Shown here one piece after another: positions 23,991 through 25,607 of a stretch of 47,611 bases of DNA; within the stretch, counting starts at the first letter, position 1; each line of letters opens with the position of its first letter. The stretch is from Chitinophagaceae bacterium (GTDB lineage Bacteria > Bacteroidota > Bacteroidia > Chitinophagales > Chitinophagaceae): the NCBI GenBank assembly GCA_947456825.1, contig CANGTM010000006.1, positions 1 to 47,611 of the forward strand, written 5' to 3'. The notes beneath the pieces are model-generated. The model did no database searches and had not been told where the DNA came from. It saw only the letters and a program-made list of their open reading frames with translations. A program made the translations under genes and the position numbers.

Positions 23991-25052
23991 ATGCTAGACA
24001 AATTAGAAGCGATAAAAGCCCGTTTTGATCAATTGGGAGTGGCCCTCACCAATCCCGAGATCGTTGGTAACAATAAAAAGTTTGCCGAGACCAGCAAAGA
24101 ATACAGAAGTCTGGAGCGGATCGTAACGGCTTACCTGAACTACAAGAAATTATTGGAGGATATAGAATTCTACAAGGAGGCCATGGCCGGTACCGACGAA
24201 GAGTTACGAGAGCTGGCCAAACAAGAGCTGCCTGTATTGGAGCAACAGCAAGGCCAGACCGAGGCCGCTATTCGTCAATTATTGATACCCAAGGATCCGC
24301 AAGACGAAAAGAATGCCATTTTAGAGATCAGAGCCGGTACGGGAGGCGATGAGGCCAGCTTGTTTGCCGGCGATCTGCTTAGGATGTATATGCGCTACTG
24401 CGATCGAAAGGGCTGGAAGACCGCCTTGTTGAGTGAAAATGAGGGAACGGTAGGCGGATATAAAGAGGTGCAGCTCGAGGTGGTGGGAGATGATGTATAT
24501 GGAACACTCAAGTTCGAGAGTGGCGTACACCGGGTACAACGGGTGCCCGATACAGAGGCCAGCGGTCGGGTACATACCTCCGCTGCCACCGTGGCCGTGA
24601 TGCCCGAGGCCGAAGAATTGGATTTTGAATTGAATCCGGCCGATGTTAAAATGGAGACGGCCCGCAGTGGGGGAGCCGGTGGGCAGAACGTAAACAAGGT
24701 AGAGACCAAGGTGATGCTGACCCATATCCCTACGGGGACTGTGGTCGTATGCCAGACAGAGCGTTCGCAATTAGCCAACCGCGAAAAGGCCATGCAAATG
24801 CTTCGTACCCGCTTGTACGAAGAACAGGTAAGAAAGCAAGAGGATGAGATAGCGCGCCACCGTAAAAGCTTGGTTAGTACGGGTGATAGAAGCGCCAAGA
24901 TCAGAACCTATAATTTTCCGCAAGGAAGGGTTACCGATCACCGGATCGGGTTTACACTCTACAACCTGGATGCGGTATTGAACGGGGAAGTGCAGGAGCT
25001 TATTGATGCCCTTCAATTTGCCGAGAATGCAGAAAAGCTAACCCGCTCCTAA
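23991..25052 (+). CDS. prfA: Peptide chain release factor 1
   Basis: Class I release factor that reads UAA and UAG and triggers hydrolysis of peptidyl-tRNA. In 353 residues it has the catalytic GGQ (230-232, in GAGGQNVNK) and the codon-recognition PxT motif as PDT (186-188) in [16 protein letters not shown], which marks RF1 rather than RF2 (SPF). There is no internal frameshift, as expected for RF1. It is a single gene with its own promoter. An unusual set of inverted repeats and a likely terminator follow it. Confidence 0.96.
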
Positions 25053-25083
25053 GTCTGTTAAAGAAGTTTTGAATATTTTAACA

Positions 25084-25185
25084 AGGGGTCGCTCAACTTT
25101 GAAACTAACTTTACGTTGTATTACTGTTGATCAATTAGACAATAAACATTTTTCTCATAAGCAGTTAGTTTTGGTTGCGACCCCT
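25084..25185. repeat. Imperfect long inverted repeat downstream of prfA
   Basis: Left arm 25084-25110 and right arm 25163-25185 pair in two blocks: nine bases AGGGGTCGC (25084-25092) with GCGACCCCT (25177-25185), and nine bases AAACTAACT (25102-25110) with AGTTAGTTT (25163-25171), separated by an unequal internal loop. The AT-rich centre is 52 bases. The right arm encodes part of the VanZ C-terminus. No flanking target duplication was seen, so a transposon remnant is not supported. The right arm can alternatively pair with 25193-25200 (see terminator). Confidence 0.55.
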
Positions 25186-25607
25186 GTTTCCACAGGGGTC
25201 AATTTTTTGGCCAACCACCAACCTGTTATGCATCCGATGGCATTACAGGCCATATCTGCATAGTCGAACTGACGTCCCAATTGCATGGCTTCTTGTAAAA
25301 ACTCTATACCAATCCCTACGAAAAGCCATCCAATCAGATTCAAGAAGATCGATACCTGCAGATGCCTTTTGTTGAATGGCAGTACCACCAGCACCCGTTG
25401 CCATAGAAAAACCAATCCCCAAAAAATTGTCAAATGGATCAATTTGTCGATCGGAAGTCGATCTTCCCATTCGGCTATTCCCACTACAGTGAGTAACCAT
25501 CCCAAGATCCCTTTTTTCGAAAAAGAGGAGGCCGGTGCCAGTAATAAATAACCAGAAAAGCACAACCAGCCAATTGCCGTGGCCGATCGAAAAAATAGCT
25601 TGTTCAA
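25155..25607 (-). CDS. VanZ family membrane protein
   Basis: A 150-residue inner-membrane protein with about four helices. The VanZ-type features are the central DRLPIDKLIHLTIFWGL (about 50-66) and the C-terminal EFLQEAMQLGRQFDYADMACN region, in which a Gln/Glu-rich helix leads into R-x-x-D-x-x-D. VanZ proteins confer low-level teicoplanin resistance in enterococci, but the function of chromosomal homologues is unknown. The only plausible start is TTG at 25607, 11 bases after the gcvH stop codon, so it is probably read from the gcvH mRNA. The last residues are encoded by one arm of an inverted repeat, so the C-terminus may vary among relatives. Confidence 0.82.
   Translation of the reverse strand: MNKLFFRSATAIGWLCFSGYLLLAPASSFSKKGILGWLLTVVGIAEWEDRLPIDKLIHLTIFWGLVFLWQRVLVVLPFNKRHLQVSIFLNLIGWLFVGIGIEFLQEAMQLGRQFDYADMACNAIGCITGWWLAKKLTPVETGVATKTNCL
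25179..25208 (+). terminator. Perfect 8-bp hairpin plus T6, likely prfA terminator
   Basis: GACCCCTG (25179-25186) and CAGGGGTC (25193-25200) form a perfect 8-bp stem with a 6-base loop; AA and six T (25203-25208) follow. This is a good intrinsic terminator for plus-strand transcription from prfA and lies inside the 3' end of the convergent VanZ gene. Its left arm is shared with the longer inverted repeat, so the two structures exclude each other. Confidence 0.55.

Follow-up and report, generated by a model that had tools for sequence, protein, structure and literature searches.

The window analyzed here is a 47,611-nt stretch of DNA from a Chitinophagaceae bacterium (GenBank assembly GCA_947456825.1, contig CANGTM010000006.1, positions 1 to 47,611). 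At the locus of interest, prfA on the plus strand is followed by a convergent gene whose product resembles VanZ, barely missing the Pfam VanZ cut-off of 30.1 (30.0 bits, E 8.9e-7). Inverted repeats occupy the space behind prfA and extend across the 3' end of the VanZ-like gene. No plus-strand gene lies directly downstream, the next genes being convergent, just as the initial annotation had it, and no tRNA was found in the window. The features are as follows.

23991..25052, plus strand: prfA, the upstream neighbor (Pfam PCRF and RF-1)
25084..25092, plus strand: outer block of an upstream arm, AGGGGTCGC, which pairs with GCGACCCCT at 25177-25185
25095..25117, plus strand: promoter-like AAC-N16-CGTT, at the place where many other copies of the element carry a sigma-54-like -24/-12 box
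25102..25110, plus strand: inner block of the upstream arm, AAACTAACT, which pairs with AGTTAGTTT at 25163-25171
25122..25208, plus strand: inferred small RNA of ~85 nt, its 5' end a guess placed a few bases past the promoter-like box
25154..25176, plus strand: conserved 23-nt core, CTCATAAGCAGTTAGTTTTGGTT, the putative seed region of the small RNA
25179-25187 and 25192-25200, plus strand: terminator hairpin of 9 bp, with arms GACCCCTGT and ACAGGGGTC and loop TTCC
25203-25208, plus strand: T6 tract of the intrinsic terminator, after AA at the 3' foot of the hairpin
25155..25607, minus strand: VanZ-like convergent gene, its 3' end overlapping the element

The initial annotation described three mutually exclusive arms, of which the middle one could pair either with the upstream arm or within a downstream hairpin. 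All three arms are present in the sequence, as are the downstream hairpin and its T6 tract, with a stem of 9 bp rather than the 8 bp given there. When 25050-25215 is folded as RNA, both strands are more stable than shuffled sequences: the plus strand reaches -40.6 kcal/mol (z -2.79, equaled by 0 of 200 shuffles) and the minus strand -35.8 kcal/mol (z -2.50, equaled by 4 of 200). The T-run stands 3' of the hairpin on the plus strand. The inferred RNA at 25122..25208 folds at -22.0 kcal/mol (z -3.07), which 3 of 200 shuffles equal. Terminator-like matches are by themselves ordinary in this region (4 vs a shuffle mean of 2.8); this particular hairpin is conserved family-wide.

The structure had also been said to lie across the end of the VanZ gene and to encode its C terminus. 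The window ORF does pass through the hairpin, terminating at a TGA within the core (25155-25200, minus strand), but the orthologue in G155, a genome of the same genus, has its stop just ahead of the hairpin, and the window's longer VanZ tail is therefore best read as read-through into the antisense of the element. A coding role for the element itself appears unlikely because two plus-strand frames hold stop codons within the core. The core also bears what we take to be a likeness to the anticodon loop of tRNA-Met.

Judged by its conservation, the downstream hairpin is the terminator of a conserved element made up of the 23-nt core and the hairpin. The window's own genome holds two copies. The second, at G000:C35:12953-13023, has the same TTTCTCATAAGCAGTTrGTTTTGGTT followed by a hairpin of different sequence and then a T-run, and has as neighbors an arginine-decarboxylase-like gene on one side and a ytxJ-like gene (Pfam Disulph_isomer) on the other. 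A search for the segment elsewhere in the genome and in relatives, proposed as a check in the annotation, thus returned both this second copy and matches throughout the family. A BLAST search with 25140-25210 was positive in 173 of the 244 family genomes, representing 73 of 101 genera, and gave no match in the remaining 71; no more than the three best candidates were scored in nearly every genome, so that copy numbers from this survey are soft. With 25040-25215 as the query, 38 of 39 genus genomes are positive, each with 1-5 matches.

A covariance model (R1) likewise confines the element largely to the family, by splits counted from the listings of its matches: 73 of 85 genomes within the family, 69 of these at E below 1e-6, as opposed to 8 of 213 genomes from the order's other families (best E 1.1e-6, none below 1e-6), and, in a sample of the phylum, 12 of 14 family genomes vs 3 of 381 others. 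The exact core pattern occurs in at least 119 stretches of named genomes; among the matches listed, Chitinophagaceae, Sediminibacterium, Niabella, Terrimonas, Segetibacter or Flavihumibacter appears in many titles, Bacteroidetes alone in some, and Williamsia in two. Several further observations concern copy number and divergence. Tandem pairs of elements ~80 nt apart occur at G213:C1:677214-677433, G083:C2:657839-658059, G160:C1:573551-573769 and G845:C22:320689-320907, and G104 alone contains 13 matches to the model. Outside the family, weak matches to the model retain recognizable pieces of the core (L179 in G297, L178 in G612 and L180 in G616); that in G297, TTTTTCTCATAAGCAATTTGTTTTTGGTT, looks like a diverged relative, and diverged relatives of the RNA may exist elsewhere in the phylum.

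For comparison among copies, we assembled 147 distinct copies from 153 matches; since most were located through the exact core pattern, core invariance among them holds by construction. A less biased check comes from 58 top-ranked loci selected by BLAST, 56 of which were aligned: the core is invariant in all 56, and positions 21-35 nt ahead of it are only 34-62% conserved. In folding, the positions of the core have mean unpaired values of 0.20-0.83, so that it is unpaired only in part, and a possible small second hairpin within it is invariant in sequence and hence gives no covariation signal. Many copies next to VanZ-like genes, such as L016, carry AAGCAGTCAATTTT ahead of the core, which resembles the core's AAGCAGTTAGTTTT and forms an imperfect direct repeat with it.

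The terminator stem, by contrast with the core, varies in sequence while retaining its pairing. The 147 copies have 53 different 5' stem arms, a loop of TTCC, TTCT or TTCA in 133, and at least 4 T within the 9 bases past the stem in 146. Pairs were counted in 60 of 66 copies selected because their stems were distinct and scored 20 or more for pairing, after L044, L079, L088, L100, L146 and L160 had been dropped as irregular. In this set, whose selection favors pairing, two-sided changes occur at all 9 stem pairs and 98.7% of cells are paired in register, vs 29-57% in slid controls, and 126 two-sided cells were observed vs 29.5 in shuffled data. With its hairpin, T-run and conserved pairing, the element has the sequence attributes of an intrinsic (Rho-independent) terminator.

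The genomic settings of the element recur. Tail-to-tail with a VanZ-like gene downstream, always on the minus strand, stand 86 of the 147 copies, and in 66 of these 86 the VanZ-like stop is at most 60 nt from the core start, overlap with the element thus not being peculiar to the window's VanZ-like gene; one member of the VanZ-like cluster scores 23.9 bits against the Pfam cut-off of 30.1. The genes upstream of VanZ-side copies vary, some pointing away from the element, and prfA is among them in 23 of 86; in the window the core starts 101 nt past prfA on the same strand. A second setting is the 3' end of hsp20, found by tblastn directly upstream on the same strand in 22 of the 147 copies, with the hsp20 match ending 9-41 nt before the core. 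This total includes L115 and L130, both reassigned by tblastn: a crude clustering of ORFs had grouped L115 with ytxJ because of a fused antisense ORF and had cut short the hsp20 of L130 (170 nt away). One hsp20-side gene has a Pfam HSP20 match. Beyond hsp20, ytxJ is divergent in 20 of the 22 loci, making ytxJ-hsp20-element the common order.

At six loci (L002, L053, L081, L083, L106 and L143), ytxJ lies 121-164 nt from the element with no hsp20 between them. These include the second copy of the window's own genome and the copy in G155, and the genomes concerned measure 1.6-2.1 Mb. Position 14 of the core is G in 26 copies, namely 19 on the hsp20 side, the six beside ytxJ without hsp20, and L160, where ytxJ is about 1 kb off. 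The simplest reading of the six loci is that hsp20 was lost from that place and the RNA tail kept, and retention of the element beside ytxJ after such a loss speaks for a function of its own.

Promoter-like boxes precede many copies, as scored in 144 of the 147 (short or N-holding upstream sequences were left out). A -24/-12 score of at least 15 is reached by 58 of 83 VanZ-side copies vs 0 of 83 downstream controls, and the sigma-54-like pattern GG-N10-G stands ahead of 55 of the 83 VanZ-side cores, where 0.12 would be expected. The same pattern stands 31-66 nt ahead of the called start codon in 20 of 20 hsp20 genes examined, against 0.06 expected, in the form YGGY-N6-TTTG and commonly TGGTAC-N4-TTTGA, as in L062; directly upstream of hsp20-side cores it occurs in 0 of 22, and in other copies in 6 of 32. 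The sigma-54 box is missing from the window copy, the second copy of its genome, 28 of 83 VanZ-side copies, 26 of 32 other copies and 7 of 7 copies assigned to the ytxJ side (L115 among them, which in fact belongs on the hsp20 side). A gene for sigma-54 is present.

At the place of the missing box, the window carries AAC-N16-CGTT, presumably an ECF-like motif. The related pattern [AT]AC-N16-17-CGT[ACT] is found in 9 of 25 VanZ-side copies that fall short of a sigma-54 score of 15, where 0.4 would be expected, but likewise in 27 of the 58 that reach it, where 1.5 would be expected; the promoter-like region of the window is conserved in G649, G631, G652 and G665. By eye, a TTTAACA motif recurs ahead of the promoter-like boxes of many VanZ-side copies, at 25077-25083 in the window. 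Among the options in the annotation, the conserved core, the compensatory stem changes, the T-run and the promoter-like sequence before many copies favor a terminator that belongs to a small RNA. In our view the hairpin is probably where a small regulatory RNA ends, one with a core nearly unchanged across Chitinophagaceae.

The third, upstream arm had suggested a different reading, in which an antiterminator/terminator switch would act on read-through RNA from prfA in the window lineage. The pairing on which this idea depends is strong: the upstream arm forms a duplex of -30.0 kcal/mol with the 3' part of the core and the 5' stem, and 0 of 3000 mononucleotide shuffles are as good. Of the five genomes compared, namely the window's and its four closest, four keep the outer arm GGGGTCGC (G649, G631 and G665 among them), and all keep the region around AACTT...AACTAACTTTACGTT. 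The outer arm is, however, destroyed in G652, G653 has a partial arm (z -2.99), and four further relatives have none. Among relatives sharing the gene order, where the annotation had proposed to look for compensatory changes, G155 has the same prfA-element-VanZ arrangement and no long-range duplex (z +1.57 in one comparison, +1.05 in another). Across all 142 copies whose upstream sequence could be used, z has a median of 0.13 and falls below -3 in only 5, the window included.

Because the partner arms hardly vary among close relatives, no compensatory change could be seen, and covariation cannot be shown for the long-range pairing. The switch as a conserved feature is thus not upheld, the arm being limited to close relatives and broken in G652, and even for the window lineage we consider it improbable. 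Nor do the mutually exclusive arms fit a transcription attenuator, being neither conserved nor placed before a plus-strand gene that they could control. The promoter-like region is also where the inner block falls, and we read the upstream arm as a local inverted near-copy, or a coincidence, over the promoter rather than as a conserved switch. An inverted near-copy of the element would then overlie the promoter region in the window lineage and give rise to the third arm, and if transcription starts past the promoter-like box, this arm would not be in the RNA.

The presence of inverted arms in the window lineage, together with several copies in many genomes and up to 13 model matches in one, could also point to a small insertion or a mobile, MITE-like repeat, such as the annotation had entertained. 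The core and its place beside VanZ nevertheless recur across genera; the VanZ place accounts for 86 of 147 copies and the ytxJ/hsp20 place for most of the others with G at core position 14, and by eye the copies have no end repeats in common. These recurring genomic places rule against the insertion, which we regard as very improbable indeed.

Within the reverse complement of the core lies TTATGAGAAAA, which raised the idea of start-codon targets. The pattern DTGCTTATGAGAAA gave 67 matches in 56 of 195 genomes, whereas a single shuffled pattern, used as control, gave 19 in 19 of 195; of 30 of these 67 that were inspected, 10 are starts of ORFs longer than 200 aa, as are 5 of 19 controls. The pattern does not support start-codon targets, there being no enrichment of ORF starts and the excess of matches fitting in-frame AYEK codons. 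Likewise, across 269 gene starts the duplex energies of the core are no better than those obtained with 60 shuffled cores, and strong duplexes in these start regions number 1 vs a shuffled mean of 5.4. A search of 19 genomes, the window's own included, turned up no Hfq, and the own genome encodes three RRM_1 proteins.

These results bear on two further explanations. The core could be a binding or sponge site for protein, for instance for RRM proteins, instead of a seed for mRNA; its invariance and U-richness, the negative target tests, the three RRM_1 proteins and the failure to find Hfq in 19 genomes are all consistent with this. A binding site for protein seldom requires as many as 23 fixed bases, however, and the analogous FopS RNAs bind RbpB as well as pairing with mRNAs (PMC11697453); we judge a pure protein site unlikely. 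Nor do we give much weight to a conserved mRNA 3'-end element that would protect or terminate upstream messages (prfA, hsp20 and others) and yield no separate trans-acting RNA, although the same-strand hsp20 genes 9-41 nt ahead of 22 of 147 cores and the position of the window core behind prfA fit it. Against it, the upstream genes of VanZ-side copies vary and in part point away, with prfA in 23 of 86; a terminator has no need of an invariant 23-nt core; most VanZ-side copies have a promoter-like box of their own; and at six loci the element outlives hsp20 beside ytxJ.

With moderate confidence, we conclude that the element probably represents a multicopy family of trans-acting small RNAs with two branches, one stand-alone and one at hsp20 3' ends, under putative sigma-54 stress control. 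On this view, a stretch of the plus strand reaching from ~25120 to 25208 would encode a variable leader, an invariant core (UUUUCUCAUAAGCAGUURGUUUUGGUU in the proposed RNA) and a Rho-independent terminator. In the stand-alone branch, the gene would lie between varying upstream genes and a VanZ-like 3' end, usually behind a sigma-54-like promoter; in the other, the RNA would form the 3' end of hsp20 messages, themselves preceded by a sigma-54-like promoter. Among relatives of the window genome, hsp20 would have gone missing from that place and the element would remain beside ytxJ. We infer that the RNA is expressed under sigma-54 stress control, possibly of ECF type in the window, and that its core pairs with mRNAs in trans, without Hfq and perhaps with RRM-type proteins. 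A bolder version, which we hold tentatively and at somewhat less than even confidence, would have stand-alone genes and hsp20 3' ends with sigma-54-like promoters supply one and the same core, so that a chaperone mRNA doubles as a source of a stress small RNA, and in the window's lineage of small genomes hsp20 would have vanished from that place while its RNA tail was kept, the stand-alone gene for its part having come under an ECF-like promoter and gained an inverted arm.

Scans against Rfam 15 gave no family above gathering for the window or six other loci, the four window matches up to E 10 all being far below it; a known RNA family was set aside accordingly. No paper describing the element was found in searches of an open-access library, as judged from search listings, and, to our knowledge, little is known about small RNAs of Bacteroidota outside Bacteroides and Flavobacterium. 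Paralogous RNAs that depend on sigma-54 are represented in Proteobacteria by Qrr and GlmY/GlmZ, which are Hfq-dependent or protein-decoy systems. The element resembles them as a set of paralogous RNAs under sigma-54, here putative, in another phylum, and we claim no sequence relation.

Closer to hand, RbpB of Bacteroides is an RRM-type protein. It binds the multicopy FopS RNAs, a family of paralogous small RNAs in Bacteroides of which at least one, FopS-14, is derived from a 3' UTR (PMC11697453). By architecture, the element is like FopS and GibS, multicopy small RNAs of Bacteroidota (PMC11697453, PMC7366714): each has several paralogues per genome and a conserved stretch followed by a Rho-independent terminator, although the core of our element is only partly unpaired. 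In the same accounts, and unlike the element, FopS and GibS belong to Bacteroidaceae, use housekeeping or PM2 promoters rather than sigma-54-like ones, and have known targets (susC starts). Rfam, where the FopS structure was deposited according to PMC11697453, gave no match to the element. In Flavobacterium psychrophilum, also of the Bacteroidota, Rfp36 is a putative sigma-54-driven RNA downstream of SM4, a -24/-12 motif with a regulon that takes in protein quality control and envelope stress (PMC9723704). The element resembles it, by description only, in the sigma-54-like motif ahead of many of its copies.

Our best reading, by analogy, is that the element belongs to an undescribed multicopy small-RNA family built like FopS, and it may work like FopS as well. 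Its core is common to stand-alone genes and hsp20 3' ends, and in one lineage appears to have outlived hsp20. As such, the element would merit an entry in Rfam and would provide, within a large family of environmental bacteria, a ready test of Hfq-free, stress-controlled small RNAs.
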